43,978 nucleotides of DNA. It comes from Hadesarchaea archaeon. Lineage in GTDB: Archaea; Hadarchaeota; Hadarchaeia; Hadarchaeales; WYZ-LMO6. The notes under the pieces are model-generated. The model saw only the letters and a program-made list of their open reading frames with translations. It searched no databases and was not told where the DNA came from. Position 1 is the stretch's first letter, and each line of letters starts with the position of its first letter. This document shows, one piece after another, positions 2,559 to 43,978 of this stretch. Location of the stretch: NCBI GenBank assembly GCA_029259185.1, contig JAPDJF010000026.1, positions 1-43,978 of the forward strand, read 5' to 3'. A program made the position numbers and the translations under genes.

Positions 2559-4949
2559 TCAGTTCGACCCCTGCCCGATCACTTGCTCCACTCGGGTTGG
2601 CTCGTCCTTGTTTTTATCCCGGTAGAAACGGTAGAGGTAACCGCTGACCGCAGCCTCAAGTCGCTCTTCATGGGTTATGAGCAATACCTGGCGGATCAGC
2701 TCGGGCAAGCGTTCCCTGAGAACCTTAGCGAGCTCTTGAATACCCTCCGAGTCCAAATTGTGGGTGGGCTCGTCAAGCACTATCCAGCTCAGTCTCGGTG
2801 CTAGGGCCAAGGCGAAGGCTATTCGCATGACCAAGCACGCGTCGGTTCGCTCTCCGCCGCTCGCTACTCCTTCAACGGGGACCCAGTTCCCCCTCCGGTC
2901 TCTGAGCTCCAGCACGTAATCTCCCTTCGCCCCGACTGAAAGCCTCACCGAGGTATAATCCCCGTAGGGGTAAATTCCATCCCACAGATCGGCCATCGTC
3001 TGATTAACCAAATCGACGAACCTAACACGCATCGCCACCTGGGTTCTAGAGAGTGCCGTCTGGATGAGGTTCAGTGCGGTGGCGGCTTCGCTGAAGTATC
3101 TCGCCTCCACCTCACTCCTCCTGAGTGAAAAGACTTTATCCTCGATGCTTTTTATCAGCCTCTTGCGCTCTTCCACCAGCTTCTCTTTCCCCCTGATGTC
3201 TGCTTCGATCGCCCCCACTCGGCTTATGAGCCTCTCCCGGGCTTCCTTCAGCTCTCTCAGCTTAGACTCACTGTACGTCTTCTTGATCTCCCAGATCTCT
3301 CGTTGGAGGTTCAACCCTTCTGCCTTCTTTCTCCTCAACTCCGCCTCCTGTCTTTGCAGATCGGAGCGGAGTTCCAGCTTCGACTTCAGATCCGACAAAC
3401 GAGTGCGGGTGTCCTCGACTCGTCCACGCACGCGCTGGAGTCTTGCCCTCAGATCCTCCACCGCCACCCTCTCCTCGCGCAGCTCCTCGTTCACCTTCCT
3501 TTGACTCTCGAGCACCTGCCCGTGTTCCTCCAAGACTCGAGGGAGGTCATCCACCTCTCTCATCATCGTCCTCACCTTCTCCTGGAGTTCGAGTTTCTCG
3601 CCGAGTGCTCTCTCCAGCCTCAAGCACTCAGCCTCGAGGACGGGGATCCTCTTCTTCTTCTCGTCCACCTCACGCCGCCGCCTCTCCATCAAACTCCGCT
3701 TTTTCCCTTCCTCCAAGGGAGACTCACACACGGGGCACGTCGACCCGGCCTCTGCTAGCTCTTCCACACTCGACTCCAGCTCGTTCACCCTCTCCCTCGT
3801 GGAGGTGAGTTCAACCCTGAGGGAGTTGAGTTCCGACCGGATTCTCTCTATCGAGGCGGATAGCTCATCCACCCCGATCTCCTTGAGTTTTCTCTCGATC
3901 CTCCGCTTCTCCTCCATTTCGTGCTCGAGTCTTCTCCGGTTCTCCTCGAGCATGCTCAACCTAGCCTCAAGCTTTCCCACCTTGGACATGGCGGAGTTGA
4001 GTTCCGAATTCAGCTCCGCCTCCTCTCTCAGAGCCTCCGAGCTGGCACGCTCCGCTTCCCGATACTCCCTCTCCAGCTCATCCATTCCCACCTCGATCGC
4101 TGGGCCGAGCTTCGCCCTTATCTCATCCACCCTGCGCTTCAGGGTACGGATCTCCCCCTCCTTCCCATCCATAGCTCGTTCGAGCTCTCCCAGCCTGCGC
4201 CCGGCATCTTCCATCTCTCTCAACGGTGCCTCGATCTCTTCCAGTTTAGACCGAAGTTCCCGGAAGCGACTTTTGGCCTCCTCTAGGGACGCTTCGAGGT
4301 TCTTAGCCTCCTCGACGTAGGTCGGGAGGAGGGCTATCGAGGAATCTTGACGGAGCTGGGCCGCTAACCTTTCCCTATCCTGGGCCCTGTCCGCGAGTCC
4401 CCTTGAGAGGGAGCCCAGCCTCCTACGTGCCTCCTCAAGCTTGTCCATCCCCATCAGCTCGTCTATCTTCTCCCTCCTCTTCCCCACCGGGAGGATCAGG
4501 AAGAGATCCAGCCTATTCTGCTGAGCGTACACGGCCCTCTCGAATAGGTCATAGTCCATCCCTAGCAATGACTGGACGAGCTCAGTCACCCTGCTCGAAC
4601 TCGGGCTCTCTATTACCCCTCCGTTGACCTTTCTCAGCTCGGAGAATGCGGTTCCTTCCCCCCTCCTTATCACCCTCTTGACCACGTACTCCTCCCCCTC
4701 GGGGGTGACGAAACCCACCTCCACCTCAGACGATTCCGCGGGCTCGGGCTTGCCCCTGATGAGATCCTCGAGTTTGATCTTCCTCATTTTGACATCGGGG
4801 GTCGTTCCGAAGAGGCCCATCGTTATCGCCTCTAGCACGCTACTCTTCCCCGTCCCCATCCCTCCGACAAGGATGTTGGTACCATCCCCGAACCTGAGCT
4901 CGGTGTCCCGGTGAGATCTCCAATTCTTGAGCCTCACGTAGGTTATCAT
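2559..4949 (-). CDS. rad50: DNA double-strand break repair ATPase Rad50
   Basis: ABC-type ATPase that works with Mre11 to tether and process DNA ends. The N-terminal lobe has a Walker A (GGMGTGKSS, residues 29-37) and a Q-loop region near YAQQNRLDLF. Long heptad-rich coiled coils fill the middle around a zinc hook CPVC (Cys405, Cys408) that dimerises two molecules. The C-terminal lobe carries the ABC signature ASGGERTDACL and Walker B WIVLDEPTHNLD. At 796 residues it is a little shorter than many archaeal Rad50 proteins because of short coiled-coil arms. Its ATG overlaps the mre11 stop by 4 bases, indicating a translationally coupled operon. Confidence 0.97.
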   Translation of the reverse strand: MITYVRLKNWRSHRDTELRFGDGTNILVGGMGTGKSSVLEAITMGLFGTTPDVKMRKIKLEDLIRGKPEPAESSEVEVGFVTPEGEEYVVKRVIRRGEGTAFSELRKVNGGVIESPSSSRVTELVQSLLGMDYDLFERAVYAQQNRLDLFLILPVGKRREKIDELMGMDKLEEARRRLGSLSRGLADRAQDRERLAAQLRQDSSIALLPTYVEEAKNLEASLEEAKSRFRELRSKLEEIEAPLREMEDAGRRLGELERAMDGKEGEIRTLKRRVDEIRAKLGPAIEVGMDELEREYREAERASSEALREEAELNSELNSAMSKVGKLEARLSMLEENRRRLEHEMEEKRRIERKLKEIGVDELSASIERIRSELNSLRVELTSTRERVNELESSVEELAEAGSTCPVCESPLEEGKKRSLMERRRREVDEKKKRIPVLEAECLRLERALGEKLELQEKVRTMMREVDDLPRVLEEHGQVLESQRKVNEELREERVAVEDLRARLQRVRGRVEDTRTRLSDLKSKLELRSDLQRQEAELRRKKAEGLNLQREIWEIKKTYSESKLRELKEARERLISRVGAIEADIRGKEKLVEERKRLIKSIEDKVFSLRRSEVEARYFSEAATALNLIQTALSRTQVAMRVRFVDLVNQTMADLWDGIYPYGDYTSVRLSVGAKGDYVLELRDRRGNWVPVEGVASGGERTDACLVMRIAFALALAPRLSWIVLDEPTHNLDSEGIQELAKVLRERLPELIRQVLLITHEERLEAAVSGYLYRFYRDKNKDEPTRVEQVIGQGSN

Positions 4950-22334: not shown

Positions 22335-25300
22335 TTGTGTGGAATCGTCGGCTACATCGGTAAACGCAAAGCAGCGCCCCTCTTATTCGATGCACTGAGG
22401 CGTTTGGAATATCGGGGGTACGATTCCATCGGGGAAGCGACCATCTGGAAGGGAAAACTATACGTGAAAAAGGATCGGGGAAAAATCGAGGATGTCCATC
22501 GCAAACTAAAACTCGACGATTTGCCAGGCAATGTGGGGATAGGGCACTGTCTACATCCCGAGACCATAGTCCAACTGGGCGATGGCAGGATCACGCGTAT
22601 TTCCGAGATAGATCGAAAATGCCATGTCTGGGCATACCGTATTCACGAGAGAAAATTCGTGCGTGCGAGGGCTCTGTGCTTCAGACACCCCGCCCCCCCT
22701 TACCTCCACAGGATAAAGACTCAGTTCACCGAAATCGTCTGCACAGGGAATCACCGTCTGCTCGTGGCGGGGGCGAACGGGAAGATAGTCGAAAAGAGGG
22801 TAAGGGATATCGAAAGAGGTGACTTGCTCCTCTGCGCTGGGAGGATTTCGATCGGGGGGAGGTCGAAGGAGCTTAGAGACGCGCAGGATAAGCAGTACAT
22901 CGCCCTCACGGCTGAGGGTGCGACGAAGGTGTCTTTCCCACGCAAAACGGGGAAAAAACTCATGCAGCTCGTGGGCTACATGCTTGGAAGTGGACACCTC
23001 GGGAAGCGAACCGTGAGAATCGAGGACATGGACAGGTCCCTCTTGGAGAGATACAACGAACTCTTCCGAGATCTCTTTGGGATCTCCGGGCGGATCGTGA
23101 GATCGAAACGAAAGGATGCGTACTCTCTGGAAATAAACGACGAACGCTTGTGCGAGTGGTTCACGGAAAACTTTCCGGAGTTACGGCGGGGGGAATTCCC
23201 AACTTGGATCGGTGGGCTTCCCGAACCCCAAGTACTCGCATTCGTCGGTGGCTTCTTTGATGCGAAGGGGATCATCGACTCCGATGGCGGACAGCTCCTC
23301 CTCAGGGGGAGCCGAAAGAACGTGAGGATGATCCAAACCCTCTTACTCAGAGCTGGCATCCTCTCATCCTGCACCCGATTCATGCCCAATGACTCGAATT
23401 GGAATGATCCCCACCCCCTGACGATTTCGAACCGCGACCAAGTGAAAAGATTTCTCGAGAGAATACCCATCCTCTCAAGTGTTAAATCGGCAGAAGCGAG
23501 AGATGCCATGCGCAAACTCTTAAAGGGTTCTCCTCGCACCGATTTCGAATTGCTGATTTCAAAGGAAAACACTCGCAAATCCCTCAGCCATCCCTCGAAA
23601 GGCTGGAGGCTTGCCACAATGCGTTCCATCCATCGAACTCAGAGAGACGGAGGGTCAAAAAAAACACCTGAGTTTTCGGGCGCACCAGTCGTGTTTCAGA
23701 AGGTCGTTTCAAACGAGAAGATCAAGAGCGATGTGAAATATGTGTACGACTTAGAGGTTCCGGGACTCGAAAATTTCGTGGCGAACTGCATCGTTTCCCA
23801 CAACTCACGCTGGGCAACCCATGGGCGTCCATCGAAGGTCAACGCCCATCCACACCTCGACACCTTCGGAAAGGTTGCCGTCGTGCACAATGGAATCTTG
23901 GAGAATTACCTAGAACTCAAAAACTTCCTCCGAAAAAAGGGATACCGTTTTTCCTCTCAGACCGACACGGAGGTGATCCCGAACCTTATCTCCTATTTCA
24001 TGCGAAAGGGAAACAGTTTGGAAAAAAGCACCGAAGAAGCTACGAAGCATCTCATTGGAAGCTTTGCCATCGCTGTGATCTGCACCGGGGAACCAAAAAA
24101 ACTCGTTGGAGTCAGGAGGGAAAGCCCACTCATCGTTGGGGTGGGGGATGGAGAAATGCTCTTGGCCTCGGACGTTCCAGCCCTGCTACCCTTCACTAGA
24201 CGTGTTATGCCTCTCCAGAACGACGAGATGGTGGTGCTGACGGAGTCATCGGTGGTCGTGAGGCGCTTGTCCGATGGAGAAGTGGTGAAGAGACCACCTA
24301 TTACCGTGACATGGACCGCCGAGATGGCGGAGAAAATGGGATACCCGCACTTTACCCTCAAAGAGATATTCCAACAACCCGAAGCCATACGGGAGACCCT
24401 GAGGGCCGCCCCCGGAGAACTGGAGAAGCTCTCGAACCTCTTCGTGAGATCGGATAGGGTGTATGTGGTCGGGTGTGGGACTTCCTATCACGCAGCACTC
24501 GTGGGGAAGTATATCCTCGCCCGGCTAGCAGACTTCTCCGTCGAAGCGGTGATAGCTTCAGAATTTCAGGAGAGCTGCAGGGTTGATCGTAGGAGCGCGG
24601 TGCTAGCGATAACTCAATCGGGGGAAACGGCTGACGTGCTCAAAGCCGTGAAACTCGCCAAGGCAGTGGGTGCCAGAGTGGCATGCCTCACCAACGTGGT
24701 GGGAAGTTCCATAACACGAGAGAGTGATTTGGTCTGCCACACCCACGCTGGGCCGGAGGTGAGCGTCGTGGCGACCAAAACTTTCGCTTCTCAAGTCGCA
24801 TATCTCTCCCTCTTCTCGATCCGGATGGGGGAGAAGACCGGGACGCTGAGGAGATCGGAAGCAAGCGAACTGTGGTCCGAGCTCCTTCGAATCCACGAGG
24901 CTGTAGAGGAGGCGGTTCGCGATTCGGTGGGCAAAACTAGGAGGATAGCGAGGAGATACTTGGATGCTGAGCATTTCTATCTCATAGGGAGGGGGATAGG
25001 CTACCCAATCGTGATGGAGGGTGCCCTGAAAATAAAGGAGATATCCTACATTCACTCCGAGGCGCTGGCGGCTGGAGAACTCAAACATGGCACCCTCGCT
25101 CTCATCGAGAAGGGAACTCCGGTAATAGCGGTGGCTCCCAACGGCGGCGCCAAAGCTAGGTTGATCAGCAATATCGAGGAGATCAAGGCAAGGGGGGCGA
25201 CTATCATAGCCGTGGCCGAGGAAGGCGACCCTGAAGTGGCTAAGCACGCGAACGTAGTGATCCCGGTTCCGAAGGTGAAAGAATTGTTCAGCCCCCTCGT

Positions 25301-25403
25301 CTTTGTCCCCCCACTTCAACTCCTTGCATACCACCTCTCTGTCGGGAGGAACCAAGATCCAGACAGACCTAGGTCGTTGGCAAAATCCGTCACCGTCGAG
25401 TAA
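22335..25403 (+). CDS. glmS: Glucosamine-6-phosphate synthase GlmS precursor with intein
   Basis: Glutamine:fructose-6-phosphate aminotransferase, the entry to UDP-GlcNAc. The TTG start at 22335 is fixed because Cys2 (MCGIVGYIG) must be the glutaminase nucleophile. The glutaminase domain is interrupted after GIGH at residue 71 by a 419-residue intein and resumes at SRWATHGRP, the usual GIGH(T/S)RWATHG motif. Two SIS isomerase domains follow (TQSGETADV, SVVATKTFASQ), and the protein ends KSVTVE as GlmS enzymes do. Without the intein it is 603 residues, the family's normal size. A TATA-like CTTTATAAG lies at about 22281. The nucleotidyltransferase gene follows 47 bases downstream. Confidence 0.96.
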   Translation: MCGIVGYIGKRKAAPLLFDALRRLEYRGYDSIGEATIWKGKLYVKKDRGKIEDVHRKLKLDDLPGNVGIGHCLHPETIVQLGDGRITRISEIDRKCHVWAYRIHERKFVRARALCFRHPAPPYLHRIKTQFTEIVCTGNHRLLVAGANGKIVEKRVRDIERGDLLLCAGRISIGGRSKELRDAQDKQYIALTAEGATKVSFPRKTGKKLMQLVGYMLGSGHLGKRTVRIEDMDRSLLERYNELFRDLFGISGRIVRSKRKDAYSLEINDERLCEWFTENFPELRRGEFPTWIGGLPEPQVLAFVGGFFDAKGIIDSDGGQLLLRGSRKNVRMIQTLLLRAGILSSCTRFMPNDSNWNDPHPLTISNRDQVKRFLERIPILSSVKSAEARDAMRKLLKGSPRTDFELLISKENTRKSLSHPSKGWRLATMRSIHRTQRDGGSKKTPEFSGAPVVFQKVVSNEKIKSDVKYVYDLEVPGLENFVANCIVSHNSRWATHGRPSKVNAHPHLDTFGKVAVVHNGILENYLELKNFLRKKGYRFSSQTDTEVIPNLISYFMRKGNSLEKSTEEATKHLIGSFAIAVICTGEPKKLVGVRRESPLIVGVGDGEMLLASDVPALLPFTRRVMPLQNDEMVVLTESSVVVRRLSDGEVVKRPPITVTWTAEMAEKMGYPHFTLKEIFQQPEAIRETLRAAPGELEKLSNLFVRSDRVYVVGCGTSYHAALVGKYILARLADFSVEAVIASEFQESCRVDRRSAVLAITQSGETADVLKAVKLAKAVGARVACLTNVVGSSITRESDLVCHTHAGPEVSVVATKTFASQVAYLSLFSIRMGEKTGTLRRSEASELWSELLRIHEAVEEAVRDSVGKTRRIARRYLDAEHFYLIGRGIGYPIVMEGALKIKEISYIHSEALAAGELKHGTLALIEKGTPVIAVAPNGGAKARLISNIEEIKARGATIIAVAEEGDPEVAKHANVVIPVPKVKELFSPLVFVPPLQLLAYHLSVGRNQDPDRPRSLAKSVTVE
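22548..23804 (+). mobile_element. GlmS intein with LAGLIDADG endonuclease remnant
   Basis: 419-residue in-frame intein. Cys1 begins CLHPETIVQLGDG (block A), block B is CTGNHRLLV with the conserved Thr and His, block F is VKYVYDLEVPGLENFVAN, and block G ends SHN before Ser+1 of the extein, so splicing residues are complete. The central endonuclease has two LAGLIDADG helices, LVGYMLGSGHLG and FVGGFFDAKGIID. In the first, the usual acidic residue of the GDG-like end is Ser (GSG), so DNA cleavage is probably lost while splicing remains. Insertion is at the conserved GIGH/SRWATHG active-domain motif. Confidence 0.93.
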
Positions 25404-38972: not shown

Positions 38973-39728
38973 GTGGGGGTTGCGGTGAAGAAAGAGGTTC
39001 TAATATCTGCCCCGAGCACCAGACCCGTTTTCAAGGGGATCCAGAAACTCTCCCTCCTCGACTATCCAGAGAAGATGGCAACCATCGTCTTCGTTGGAGG
39101 GTGTAACTTCAGGTGCCCGTTCTGCTACAACGCGGAGCTTGTCTTGAACTCCCCAGAGCTACCGTCGGTTCCCGAAAGCGGGATCCTCGAGTACCTCGAA
39201 AACAGGAGGGAGTGGCTAGATGGGGTTGTGATAACGGGGGGAGAGCCGACAATGTACCCCGAACTCCCCGACTTTCTCCAGAAAGTCAAACGAATTGGGC
39301 TAGAGATCAAACTCGATACCAACGGCTCGAACCCGGGGATGCTCGGGGAGCTGATGAGGGAGGGGCTGGTCGACTACGTGGCCTTGGACGTGAAAGCACC
39401 TCTACGCGAGGAGAAGTACGGAGAGGTCGCTGGAGTCCCGAACATGGCAAGGCTCGTCGAACGAAGCGCAAAACTCCTCCTCTCCAGTCAAATCGAGTAT
39501 GAACTCAGAACCACCGTAGTCCCGACCCTCCTCGAGGAGAACGATGTGCTCGAAATAGCCGAGCGAATAAAGGGGGCCAAGCGATACTACCTACAACAGT
39601 TCAAGCGGGCGACCACCCACTTGGATGAAAGGTTCTCCAAGATCGAACCCTACCCGCTTGAATTTCTGAGAGATCTGCAGAAAAAGGTCTCAAGCTACTT
39701 CAAGATTTGCAAGGTGAGGGGTGGATGA
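38973..39728 (+). CDS. nrdG: Anaerobic ribonucleotide reductase activating protein NrdG
   Basis: Radical SAM activase that installs the glycyl radical on NrdD. The cluster motif is CNFRCPFCYN (Cys44, Cys48, Cys51), followed by GVVITGGEPTMYPEL and LDTNGSNP. It opens with FKGIQKLSLLDYPEKMATIVF, the signature N-terminus of the archaeal NrdG family. Start at GTG 38973, with GGAGG at 38960-38964. It is 251 residues, longer than the small bacterial NrdG. The stop overlaps the nrdD ATG (ATGA). A role with another glycyl-radical enzyme is possible but the adjacent partner is nrdD. Confidence 0.92.
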   Translation: MGVAVKKEVLISAPSTRPVFKGIQKLSLLDYPEKMATIVFVGGCNFRCPFCYNAELVLNSPELPSVPESGILEYLENRREWLDGVVITGGEPTMYPELPDFLQKVKRIGLEIKLDTNGSNPGMLGELMREGLVDYVALDVKAPLREEKYGEVAGVPNMARLVERSAKLLLSSQIEYELRTTVVPTLLEENDVLEIAERIKGAKRYYLQQFKRATTHLDERFSKIEPYPLEFLRDLQKKVSSYFKICKVRGG

Positions 39729-42700
39729 GCGAGAAGATAAAGAAGATCAGGAAGAGAGACGGCCGGATAGTGGACTTCGATAGGGAACGTATAACCAACG
39801 CGATATTCAGGGCAGCAGTAGCGGTCGGTGGTAAAGATAGGAGGGTGGCGGAACTCCTGACCGACGATGTGGTCAGGATCTTAGAGGAGGAATTCGTGGA
39901 CGAAATCCCAAGTGTGGAAGACATCCAAGATGTGGTGGAGCGTGTCCTCATCGAGCATGGACACGCGCGTACCGCCAAAGCCTACATCCTGTACAGGAAA
40001 CAGCACGAGGAACTCAGGAGGATTCGGTCGACGTTCATAGAGGTGGAGCGCATCGTCGATGACTACCTGAACCAAGCGGACTGGAGGGTCAGGGAGAACA
40101 GCAACGTTGGATACTCCCTCTCGGGACTCATGCTCCACATCGCAGGGTCCGTGATCGCGAACTACACGTTAGACAAGGTTTATCCCATGGAAGTGGCTGA
40201 CGCCCACAGGAACGGTGATTTCCACCTCCACGACCTCGGGATGGGTATCACTGCTTACTGCGCCGGGTGGAGTTTAGGCCAGCTCCTAGCGGAGGGGTTC
40301 AATGGGGTTCCCGGCAAGGTGTCCTCCAAACCCCCCTCACATCTCGATACCGCCCTCCTGCAAATGGCGAACTTCATAGGATGCTATGATGACCGGACGG
40401 AGATCCTGACCCGGGAAGGATGGAAGCTATTCGAAGAGCTCTCGTACGAGGATGAAATCCTCACACTCAACCCGGAAACCTATGAACTCGAGTACCAGCG
40501 TCCGACTAGAATTTTCAAATACGACTACGACGGGGAGGTGATCTCCATCAAAACGAAGTCGATCGACTTGCTCGTTACCCCGAACCACAGGTTCTTCGTC
40601 GAGCGCCCGAGCAAGGCGGGGGGAAAACTCATTTTCAGAAAAACTTTTACAAGAGCCGATAGGCTGAGAAGCGCGGACAGGGCTCCGAGGACGGGCTATT
40701 GGAACTGTAGGGATCAGGATTACTTCGTCCTGCCGACCATGGAGGAGCGCAAGGGGGAGGAGTCGAGCCGGGGGCGAGTCAGGCACTTGTCTGAGATCAA
40801 GATCCCAATGGACGACTGGCTCCGTTTCCTTGGGATATACCTAGCTGAGGGCTCGATCCACGCGGGCGGGGATGGAGAAGGGAAAGGGACGAATTATCTC
40901 ATCAGGATCACCCAGAGGGATCCAGAGAAGAGGGGAAAAATCCGGGAACTTCTCCAGAGGCTTCCTTTCAAGTACTATGAAACTTCCCGCGATTTCATAA
41001 TTTTAAGCAAACAGCTCTGGACATACCTGAAGGAACTGGGAAAGCCCCACGAGAAGTATATCCCCCAGGAGTTCAAGGAGTTGCCGCCCAAGAGGCTCTC
41101 GATCCTTCTGGAATGGATGTTAATGGGGGACGGAAGTTACTACTCGAGGGATGGCCTTCGGGAATATGTGACAACTTCCAAGCGGCTGGCGGACGACGTG
41201 CAAGAACTCTTCCTCAAGGTCGGAAAGAGTGCCTCGGTACTGAGGCAAGAAAAGAAGACGATGATCTCTCCTATGGATGTTCGCCCGCACCGCACCAAAC
41301 CGCTATACCGGGTGAGAGAACACAAGTCGAAACGCAGCGTGTTGAAGAGCCAGAAGAAGGGGGAACCCAGCCGGAAGAGAACCCACTACAAGGGGAAGGT
41401 TTACTGCGTCGAGGTTCCAAACCACGTAATTTATGTCAGACGGAACGGGAAACCAATCTTCTGCGGGAACAGCCTCCAGAACGAGTGGGCGGGTGCGCAG
41501 GCGTTCAACTCGGTGGATACCCTCCTCGCCCCGTTCGTGCGGAAGGACGGGCTGAGCTACCGGCAGGTGAAGCAGGCGATCCAGCAGTTCGTGTACAACC
41601 TCAACATCGCTTCCCGCTGGGGAGGGCAGACCCCATTCACCAACATAACCCTCGACCTCACGGTTCCCGAGGACTTGGCAAGGCAACACGTCATCATCGG
41701 CGGCAGGCTCGGGGATCGAACCTACGAGGAGTACGAGGAGGAGATGGAGCTCATAAACCGGGCTTTCATCGAAGTGATGTTCGAAGGGGATATGAAGGGA
41801 AGGCCCTTCACTTTTCCAATCCCCACCTACAGCCTGACCCGTGATTTCGAGTGGGACAACGGGGTAGCTACGCCCCTCTTTGAAATGACCGCCAAGTACG
41901 GCCTCCCGTACTTCCAGAACTTCATAAACTCGAACCTGAAGCCGAGCGATGTGCGCAGTATGTGCTGCAGGCTGAGGCTCGACCTGACGGAGCTGAGGCG
42001 CAACGTGACGGGGGGATTGTTCGGATCCGGGGACAAGACGGGATCGATAGGGGTGGTGACCATAAACATGCCGAGGCTTGGATACCTCTCCCGGGATGAG
42101 GACGAGTTCTTCGAGCGCTTGGAGCACATGATGGAACTCGCCAAGGTGGCCCTCGAACACAAGCGCGAGATGGTAACTAGGAACATGGAGAGCGGGATCC
42201 TCCCGTACACGAAGCGGTACCTAGGAACCTTCAGGAACCACTTCTCCACCATAGGCCTCGTCGGGATGCACGAGGCCTGCCTGAACCTGTTCGGGAAGGG
42301 AATAGACGAGGAGGGGGGGAAGGACTTTGCCGTCAAAGTGCTCAAGTTCATGCTCAAACGCATCGCCACCTTCCAAGAGGAAACAGGACACCTCTACAAC
42401 TTAGAGGCGACTCCAGCGGAGGGGGTAAGCTACAGACTGGCCAAGATAGACAGACAGAAATACCCGAAGATAATCACCTCAGGGGAAAGGGTTCCGTACT
42501 ACACCAACTCCACTCAGCTCCCAGCGAACTCGGGGCTTGACCTAATCGATGCTCTCAGACACCAAGAGGAACTCCAAACACTTTACACGGGTGGAACGGT
42601 CTTCCACATTTACCTAGGGGAAAGCCTGGAGGACGGTGAAAGCTGTAAGAACCTTATGAGGAAAGTGGCATCCAAAACCAGACTCCCGTATTTCACCGTA

Positions 42701-42877
42701 ACCCCCACGTACTCGATATGTAGCGAGCACGGGTTCATATCTGGGGAAAGACACTCATGTCCCTCATGCGGAAAGGAGACGGAAGTGTACTCTCGGGTGG
42801 TTGGGTACTTCAGACCCGTGAAGAACTGGAACGCCGGGAAGCAGGAGGAGTTCCGTCAGAGGGCGATGTATCATTGA
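39725..42877 (+). CDS. nrdD: Anaerobic ribonucleoside-triphosphate reductase NrdD precursor with intein
   Basis: Class III ribonucleotide reductase. An N-terminal ATP-cone allosteric domain (about residues 1-95) precedes the ten-stranded barrel. A C-terminal zinc site (CSEHGF...CPSCGKE) follows, then the glycyl radical motif RVVGYFRPVKNWNAGK. ATG 39725 is chosen because it overlaps the nrdG stop; the frame is open a little further upstream. After NFIG the enzyme is interrupted by a 363-residue intein and resumes at SLQNEWAGAQAFNS. Without it the enzyme is 687 residues, a normal archaeal length. Oxygen-sensitive enzyme: fits an anaerobe. Confidence 0.95.
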   Translation: MSEKIKKIRKRDGRIVDFDRERITNAIFRAAVAVGGKDRRVAELLTDDVVRILEEEFVDEIPSVEDIQDVVERVLIEHGHARTAKAYILYRKQHEELRRIRSTFIEVERIVDDYLNQADWRVRENSNVGYSLSGLMLHIAGSVIANYTLDKVYPMEVADAHRNGDFHLHDLGMGITAYCAGWSLGQLLAEGFNGVPGKVSSKPPSHLDTALLQMANFIGCYDDRTEILTREGWKLFEELSYEDEILTLNPETYELEYQRPTRIFKYDYDGEVISIKTKSIDLLVTPNHRFFVERPSKAGGKLIFRKTFTRADRLRSADRAPRTGYWNCRDQDYFVLPTMEERKGEESSRGRVRHLSEIKIPMDDWLRFLGIYLAEGSIHAGGDGEGKGTNYLIRITQRDPEKRGKIRELLQRLPFKYYETSRDFIILSKQLWTYLKELGKPHEKYIPQEFKELPPKRLSILLEWMLMGDGSYYSRDGLREYVTTSKRLADDVQELFLKVGKSASVLRQEKKTMISPMDVRPHRTKPLYRVREHKSKRSVLKSQKKGEPSRKRTHYKGKVYCVEVPNHVIYVRRNGKPIFCGNSLQNEWAGAQAFNSVDTLLAPFVRKDGLSYRQVKQAIQQFVYNLNIASRWGGQTPFTNITLDLTVPEDLARQHVIIGGRLGDRTYEEYEEEMELINRAFIEVMFEGDMKGRPFTFPIPTYSLTRDFEWDNGVATPLFEMTAKYGLPYFQNFINSNLKPSDVRSMCCRLRLDLTELRRNVTGGLFGSGDKTGSIGVVTINMPRLGYLSRDEDEFFERLEHMMELAKVALEHKREMVTRNMESGILPYTKRYLGTFRNHFSTIGLVGMHEACLNLFGKGIDEEGGKDFAVKVLKFMLKRIATFQEETGHLYNLEATPAEGVSYRLAKIDRQKYPKIITSGERVPYYTNSTQLPANSGLDLIDALRHQEELQTLYTGGTVFHIYLGESLEDGESCKNLMRKVASKTRLPYFTVTPTYSICSEHGFISGERHSCPSCGKETEVYSRVVGYFRPVKNWNAGKQEEFRQRAMYH
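40382..41470 (+). mobile_element. NrdD intein with LAGLIDADG endonuclease
   Basis: 363-residue in-frame intein. It begins with Cys1 in CYDDRTEILTREGWKLFEEL (block A), has block B LLVTPNHRFFV with Thr and His, block F VYCVEVPNHVIYVRRNG and block G FCGN before Ser+1. The penultimate residue is Gly, not the usual His, which some natural inteins tolerate. The endonuclease helices are FLGIYLAEGSIH (Glu as acidic residue) and LLEWMLMGDGSYYSRDG (Asp present), so the nuclease core may be intact. The insertion point, NFIG/SLQNEWAGAQAF, is a strongly conserved NrdD motif. Confidence 0.93.
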
Positions 42878-43019: not shown

Positions 43020-43392
43020 AAATGGATTGCGATATAGGTGCATCTAGAATTCACGGATGGGTGTGGTCCGTCCGCGAGCCAAACGGTGGATGGTGCCTCC
43101 CGCGGACGCGTACGAAGACCTCGTCCACATGCACCCTTCCAGCACCCGGGCTTCAGCCCGCGCATCCACCACACAGGAGCTTCGAGCAGTGCTTGATCCA
43201 ATCGAGGATCGTCGATTCTGCCGGCCAGTAGTCGAAGTGCTATCCTAGGTGGCCACTGTTTCCGCGAGTGAGAGCCCCTGAGCGTAGAGATGCAGCGCTT
43301 CGGTGATTACCTCCTTCGGATAGGTCATGTTCTCGAAACCGTCGCGCTCCACGAAGTAGCGCTTGCACTTTTGCATCGATAGCCCTGTTCAC
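43020..43392 (-). pseudogene. Decayed DDE transposase
   Basis: Minus-strand frames show a transposase of the zinc-finger/HTH/DDE type broken by several stops and shifts. GYRCKS lies at the upstream end, and in the next frame CKRYFVERDGFENMTYPKEV continues as ITEALHLYAQGLSLAE. After a stop, WPAESTILDWIKHCSKLL is the second helix-turn-helix, and after another stop GRVHVDEVFVRVRGR contains the first catalytic Asp of the DDE triad. The rest is lost. A short palindrome CGGGCTTCAGCCCG lies inside (about 43146-43159). It occupies most of the gap between nrdD and mcrA. Confidence 0.7.
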
Positions 43393-43479
43393 TTCTTCGT
43401 CACCTACCAAGTCCAGCTTCCAAGATGAATTGACCAATCTTAAATCACTCCTAATCCTAGGAAAAACCGAACTAGAAAG

Positions 43480-43508: not shown

Positions 43509-43978
43509 GTGCCACCTCAAGAGAAAAAAAGTGAGAAAGCTTTTGAAGAAAGGGGACAAATCGAGGCCCGGGAGCGAGAATATGTAAGGGAGCTTTACGC
43601 TGTTTCCGCGAGATTTCTCCCCATAGAAAAAAGCCGGGTACTTTACTCCAGTATCAAGGAGACGTTCGGTGCAGACCCGCTTGAACTTCGCGATGTTAAA
43701 ATGTACAAGCGGGGTGGGTACCGACAGTCCAAGCGCAAGCAGGAGTTCATGAGGTTGGGCCGTCAGGTGGCCATCGAGCGTGGGCTCCCCGCTTACAACC
43801 GTGCGGTCGGGCTCCCGATAGGGCAAAGGCAGCTCGAGCCACTCATAATCTCGGGTACCAACATCGTGGTGGAGCAGGACGATACCCACCACATCAACAA
43901 TCCGGCGATCCAGCAGATGCTCGATGACATAAAGCGCACCGTCATCGTTAACCTTGACATCGCCCATCGGATGCTCAC
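43509..43978 (+). CDS. mcrA: Methyl/alkyl-coenzyme M reductase alpha subunit, N-terminal part (runs off window)
   Basis: A frame open from GTG 43509 to the window end encodes 156 residues. A stop (TAG 43473) and the TATA-like box upstream fix the start region. Residues 68-80 (RGGYRQSKRKQEF) match the McrA 'GGWKQSxRKxEF' motif. RGLPAYNRAVGLPIGQRQLE matches 'RGIPxYNPDIGxPLGQRxL'. Residues 114-145 (ISGTNIVVEQDDTHHINNPA, then IQQMLDDIKRTVIV) match the 'VSGTDxxVEGDDLHFVNNAAxQQMxDDIxRTVIV' block. It departs from methanogen sequences at usually fixed positions (VEQDDTHH for VEGDDLHF), and about 38 residues precede the normal N-terminus. The F430-ligand Gln region is beyond the edge. Acting in the cytoplasm with McrB and McrG, it would form or activate methane or longer alkanes. 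Confidence 0.9.
   Translation, partial: MPPQEKKSEKAFEERGQIEAREREYVRELYAVSARFLPIEKSRVLYSSIKETFGADPLELRDVKMYKRGGYRQSKRKQEFMRLGRQVAIERGLPAYNRAVGLPIGQRQLEPLIISGTNIVVEQDDTHHINNPAIQQMLDDIKRTVIVNLDIAHRML

Follow-up and report, generated by a model that had tools for sequence, protein, structure and literature searches.

A reading frame of the coenzyme M reductase family begins near the right edge of an archaeal contig and is cut off by it. This raises the question of which reductase it encodes, why the contig ends there, and which other genes belong with it. The window, meaning the whole 43,978-nucleotide stretch of DNA that was analysed, is contig C10 of a MAG (G000; 1.27 Mb, 54 contigs, 95% complete) with a GC content of 52.0% as measured over 94 kb. 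By sequence comparison, the lineage was assigned to Hadarchaeota, family WYZ-LMO6, proposed as Ca. Cerberiarchaeaceae (PMC10811742), since the acr contig of the family member G025 is identical to that of Hadesarchaea WYZ-LMO6 (L016). The MAG is probably Ca. Cerberiarchaeum oleivorans, a published hexadecane oxidiser; this identity is likely but not proven. Among 28 genomes of the phylum group, MCR_alpha was found only in the MAG and in two of the three other family members. A fourth family genome, G027, carries pieces of acrA, and the gene for protein X described below, at contig ends.

Edge gene and enzyme type

Three features of the window are relevant to this question.
43509..43978, plus strand: acrA1, which opens the acr operon; it has a GTG start and is truncated at the contig end, leaving the N-terminal third of the alpha subunit of alkyl-CoM reductase
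43852..43978, plus strand: left edge of the block common to acrA1 and acrA2, 127 bp visible; the same 127 bp end contig C38 (L005)
43869..43922, plus strand: conserved segment VEQDDTHHINNPAIQQML, unlike the methanogen VEGDDLHFVNNAAIQQM, identified by sequence comparison

The open frame was traced from its GTG start over 43509..43976 on the plus strand (156 aa) without closure before the contig edge. It matched Pfam MCR_alpha_N (E 7e-35, profile positions 5-117 of 269) and NCBIfam TIGR03256 (E 6e-34, profile positions 4-114 of 548). The sequence-only reading had named this frame a coenzyme M reductase alpha subunit, and the profile matches verify the assignment; the motifs it quoted, including VEQDDTHHINNPAIQQ, are all present. 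It had also noted substitutions at positions nearly fixed in methanogens, and these are seen where VEQDDTHHINNPAIQQML replaces VEGDDLHFVNNAAIQQM. An early closure of the frame without mcrB and mcrG would have refuted that reading, but the frame is open at the edge and full mcrB and mcrG lie elsewhere in the MAG.

A maximum-likelihood tree of 47 alpha subunits placed both MAG copies within the Acr clade, and the branch dividing this clade from Mcr has 100/100 support. The C-terminal halves of both copies were used; the N-terminal part in the window was not included and is tied to the tree via the shared block edge and its identity to the G026 copy. The N-terminal arm of acrA1 is 83% identical to the orthologous arm on G026:C1, against 74% to the acrA2 arm on C38. 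With this split and a Hadarchaeota-like genome, the proposal of a divergent alkyl-CoM reductase outside the methanogen McrA clade holds. The nearest Acrs in the tree were those of other Hadarchaeota, a Methanoliparia-like group (G268, G288, G306) and Helarchaeota. The very divergent alphas of two Asgard loci (L128, L129) formed long branches, still on the Acr side.

All three Mcr-family subunits are encoded together in the MAG, alpha over three contigs and beta and gamma on C38. The replacement of large aromatics in the substrate cavity by small residues is a criterion for Acr (PMC9635834). In both MAG copies the Tyr333 position is Thr and the Tyr444 position is Ala, with numbering transferred by alignment, so that this criterion is met. 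The criteria of a methanogenic Mcr, namely mcrC and mcrD in the operon and an alpha in the Mcr clade, are not met. A one-residue deletion in loop 239-246 has been proposed to open the cleft in models of long-chain Acr (PMC9118554). This deletion (SYGL-SGEH) is present in the relatives with full-length genes, G025 and G026, and the MAG site falls in the unassembled part.

The best-supported substrate is a long-chain alkane, which is likely, instead of methane or a short-chain alkane. This follows from the Acr-clade placement of both acrA copies and from the nearest Acrs, which are those of Ca. Cerberiarchaeum, Helarchaeota and the Methanoliparia-like group, together with the published hexadecane culture. 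Hexadecyl-CoM was shown in extracts of hexadecane-grown cultures of Ca. C. oleivorans (PMC10811742). The earlier suggestion of methane or short-alkane metabolism is thus retained for the alkane-type enzyme and revised for the chain length. The Acr of this family is itself already known (PMC10811742, PMC6783470).

NCBIfam TIGR03282 (methanogenesis marker 13), here equated with CfbD of F430 synthesis, had no match in the 95% complete MAG; only this one family was tested, with a positive control in two methanogens. Acr needs F430, yet the family is unmatched: the gene may lie within the missing 5% or be very divergent, or F430 may be made or obtained differently.

The other window genes looked at are housekeeping genes and have no bearing on the acr finding. 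Just upstream of acrA1, broken minus-strand frames at window positions 43100-43400 resemble a transposase remnant (YFVERDGFENMTYPKEVITEALHLYAQGLSLAETV). Intein matches at 22335-25403 and 39707-42877 lie inside GlmS (with a C-terminal splicing motif) and the anaerobic ribonucleotide reductase NrdD.

Two acrA genes and the operon order

Two McrA C-terminal halves, at the start of C38 and the start of C13, and a second N-terminal part at the end of C38 were also found in the MAG. Both acrB (mcrB) and acrG (mcrG) are complete on C38. C10 and C38 share identical last 127 bp, and C38 and C13 share identical first 127 bp. These overlaps are inferred to mark a repeat that was collapsed to a single edge of an assembly graph with k=127, where the assembler and k are themselves inferred from the numbers. 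C10 ends at acrA1 because the two acrA genes share a stretch that was not resolved by the assembler. The block identical in both genes is apparently about 630 bp long, and the middle ~378 bp of the acrA genes are missing from the assembly. Outside the block, the DNA identity between acrA1 and acrA2 is 79% on the 5' side and 83% on the 3' side.

The operon order is acrA1-X1-acrB-acrG-Y-acrA2-X2, as obtained from the linear reading C10-C38-C13 and from the order in WYZ-LMO6. In the latter, one contig carries acrA1(end)-X1-B-G-Y-acrA2-X2, followed by a convergent acyl-CoA synthetase gene. Alternatively, C38 could be an artefact or a circular element of its own, with the chromosome carrying one chimaeric acrA that joins C10 to C13. 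Such a gene has a counterpart in G026, where contig C1 (L014) runs from an acrA1-type N-terminus straight into an acrA2-type C-terminus without acrB and acrG, and where the B-G unit forms a separate 5.6-kb contig (C4, L015). However, the junction Y-acrA2-X2-acd lies on one contig in WYZ-LMO6 with X1-B-G-Y upstream, and the 127-bp overlaps between C10, C38 and C13 match the expectation for a collapsed repeat. A second mcrA inside one mcr operon is also reported for related Hadesarchaeota MAGs (PMC6783470). The alternative was found hardly credible, and the two-acrA operon is retained. The chimaeric acrA on G026 C1 was probably created by the assembler cutting across the repeat; a real recombination event that removed acrBG from some of the population also remains possible.

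The C-terminal halves of acrA show 87-90% identity between orthologues and 80-82% between paralogues. Judged by these identities, the acrA1/acrA2 paralogues predate the genus split, since orthologues are more similar to each other than paralogues are. By alignment, the shared block spans the positions of alpha Gln147 and His257. The alpha'Gln147 residue is donated to the neighbouring active site (PMC9118554). It is inferred that conversion of the core keeps both alphas interchangeable. No description of a homogenised acrA core was found in the accessible part of PMC6783470.

Proteins X and Y as candidate partners of Acr

Protein X has about 200 aa and gave no Pfam or NCBIfam match in the first search. 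In a PDB profile search with X, the best matches were SCP2 proteins in one register (4uei, E 5.6e-5). Pfam SCP2 was matched by 6 of 21 X members and Alkyl_sulf_C by 8 of 21 (best value for either, 2e-6), and the hadarchaeal X proteins individually stayed below the Pfam SCP2 threshold. The AlphaFold model of WYZ-LMO6 X1, built from only three sequences, has SCP2 topology with a pLDDT of 69 overall; values are higher across much of the SCP2 core, where block means are mostly 65-93 over residues 91-170. When this model was compared with the PDB by Foldseek, the best 46 matches were SCP2 proteins, alkylsulfatases with an SCP2-like domain, or UbiJ (best E 2.7e-7). From the profiles and the model, X has the SCP2 lipid-carrier fold. 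Binding of a hydrophobic ligand is inferred, in the absence of experimental data on ligands or interactions.

The 27 X loci come from Hadarchaeota, Asgard and Halobacteriota; in 26 of them, among these the eight from Hadarchaeota, the gene lies next to acrA, B or G, and the gene order varies. A genome search detected X in 4 of 228 Asgard and 10 of 394 Halobacteriota genomes. The alphas of the 394 Halobacteriota genomes were scored, and a clear gap separated the Acr-type (>730 bits) from the methane-type (<620). X was present in 9 of 10 Halobacteriota genomes with an Acr-type alpha, compared with 0 of ~206 with a methane-type alpha only (Fisher p 1.7e-16). This p value overstates independence, because the sample draws related genomes. 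Single genomes depart from the pattern: no X was found in G379, which has an Acr-type alpha; G558 has X-G-B and no alpha in the assembly; and X is located away from the acr operon in G268. One contig of G417 carries a B-G-X acr set plus a methane-type B-A-G set without X. In G564, a possible short-chain oxidiser with three acrA genes, X accompanies the acr copies, which indicates that X is not specific to long chains.

Neither X nor Y was found in 78 methanogen mcr loci, in a scan that also covered Hel_GB_A. X was likewise not found in the ANME-1-type genomes of the sample or in 398 Thermoproteota genomes, among which no known acr-bearing Bathyarchaeia were shown. Only alignment of full-length sequences was used in the genome-contig scan. 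Low-scoring alphas were tried as ethane-type reductases and rejected; the two tested were closest to the ANME-1 enzyme 3sqg, and ethane-type Acr is unsampled. In two Halobacteriota loci (L178, L179; G461, G569), an mcrA with a shortened N-terminus lies beside a divergent 439-aa gene resembling a tyrosine recombinase.

Protein Y has about 525 aa, and a 491-aa relative is encoded on C13. No Pfam, NCBIfam or PDB relative was detected at profile level, and the AlphaFold model, with a pLDDT of 34, is of no use. Members of the family share invariant His, Glu, Asp and Arg residues. Y occurs in 10 of 10 Halobacteriota genomes with an Acr-type alpha (weakly in G288 and G306) versus 1 of ~206 with the methane type only, and it also occurs unlinked in genomes with Acr. 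The lone methane-type genome with Y is G298 (L196, G298:C44:8362-9846), possibly an incomplete alkane oxidiser. The downstream cluster on C13 (L006 3825-8601) encodes the Y relative, two SCP2 proteins and a tungsten aldehyde ferredoxin oxidoreductase; just upstream, at 3345-3815, lies a 156-aa protein with no Pfam match. Together, these genes are a candidate set for the step after alkyl-CoM.

The proposed reading is that a two-acrA operon encodes a long-chain Acr, with which X exchanges alkane or alkyl-CoM and for which Y is a second partner. It is considered probable, though far from secure; the ligand and docking of X, the function of Y and the interchangeability of the alphas are inferred. 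Acr (alpha2 beta2 gamma2, nickel F430) would join a long-chain alkane to coenzyme M. X would bind the hydrophobic alkane, the alkyl-CoM product or both, and exchange its ligand with Acr. Water-insoluble alkanes may need such a carrier, whereas methane-type Mcr would not. Y would be another partner dedicated to Acr, its biochemistry unknown. The two alphas would differ in their N-terminal arms and C-terminal halves while gene conversion holds the F430-binding core identical, and this identical core is proposed to let either alpha form a complex with the one beta and the one gamma.

The carrier role of X is supported by fold, linkage and distribution, and its function is unproven. SCP2-fold proteins also serve as enzyme-linked domains or assembly factors, which counts against a carrier. 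UbiJ, which has this fold, is an accessory factor and not an enzyme. A serious rival, if still an unlikely one, is that X and Y help to assemble or activate Acr in place of McrD and McrC, with X handling F430 or subunits and not alkane. The complete acr operons of C38/C13 and WYZ-LMO6 fit this rival, as they hold X and Y and no mcrC or mcrD gene; the acr operon of Helarchaeota Hel_GB_A, in addition, carries an A2-type activation ATPase. However, ANME-1 operons also lack mcrC and mcrD (PMC9081873), and yet no X was found in the sampled ANME-1-type genomes. The SCP2 fold, moreover, binds aliphatic ligands, such as a C16 fatty acid (1pz4) and alkylsulfatase substrates (2cfu, 2cfz).

It is also conceivable that this is an ordinary known Acr operon in which X and Y are unrelated passengers, kept by shared inheritance or because a fixed cassette was transferred. 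Block-wise movement of Acr operons between archaea is reported (PMC10811742), and linked passengers would co-occur. Nevertheless, both genes persist through changes of order (A-Y-A2ATPase-X-B-G, B-G-A-X, B-G-X, A-X) and where identity has fallen to 20-45%. In Hadarchaeota and in G564, X has been duplicated together with acrA, and some Acr-bearing genomes have Y at an unlinked site. These data make the passenger explanation very unlikely. The exchange of ligand between X and Acr can also be stated in a stronger form, in which X and Y are obligatory for archaeal oxidation of multicarbon alkanes, with X as an Acr-docking carrier of alkane or alkyl-CoM and Y as the enzyme of the unknown alkyl-CoM to acyl-CoA step. 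The latter assignment rests on the invariant His/Glu/Asp/Arg and on the C13 relative beside the tungsten aldehyde oxidoreductase and SCP2 genes. This stronger form is regarded as decidedly doubtful.

The structural literature treats as unsolved how water-insoluble alkanes get to the nickel centre deep inside Acr and how the bulky alkyl-CoM gets out, and it offers hydrocarbon-carrier proteins only as speculation (PMC9118554). X, with its lipid-carrier fold, occurs in the acr operons of three phyla, and no copy was seen beside methane-type Mcr, including in a genome that has both types; this makes it a concrete and testable candidate for such a carrier. The conversion of alkyl-CoM to acyl-CoA is likewise unknown (PMC10811742), and Y is a candidate for this step, with its function inferred. 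Both proteins would be useful markers for separating alkane oxidisers from methanogens in metagenomes, and would supply components lacking from efforts at heterologous expression of Acr.

Comparison with known systems

As far as the literature searched shows, three features have not been described: an SCP2 protein dedicated to Acr (X), protein family Y, and a pair of acrA genes with a homogenised core. The literature search found no paper that names alkyl-CoM reductase together with sterol carrier protein or SCP2. For Ca. Cerberiarchaeum oleivorans, a single complete Acr operon is reported (PMC10811742), whereas the MAG here has two acrA genes with X1, X2 and Y; no mention of X or Y was found in that paper's main text under the terms searched. 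The Hadesarchaeota mcr operons of PMC6783470 share with the MAG a second mcrA within one operon, and the accessible part of that source yielded no description of the accessory genes X and Y.

Helarchaeota Hel_GB_A (SUPS01000022.1, L017) has an AcrA that is 63% identical. Its acr operon also encodes X, at 43-48% identity (E 4e-34), and a Y-like protein, at 20-23% (E 3e-17). Its operon differs in having a single acrA and the order A-Y-activation ATPase-X-B-G. The SCP2 superfamily, which includes sterol carrier protein 2, the C-terminal domain of the alkylsulfatase SdsA1 and UbiJ, shares its fold and core topology with the model of X. In contrast to the superfamily, X has its own N-terminal extension and a nearly always conserved C-terminal tail of the WPxGHP type. 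The methanogen mcrBDCGA operon has the A, B and G subunits in common with the acr operon of the MAG. The latter differs from it by holding X and Y instead of mcrC and mcrD, and by Thr and Ala at the positions of Tyr333 and Tyr444.
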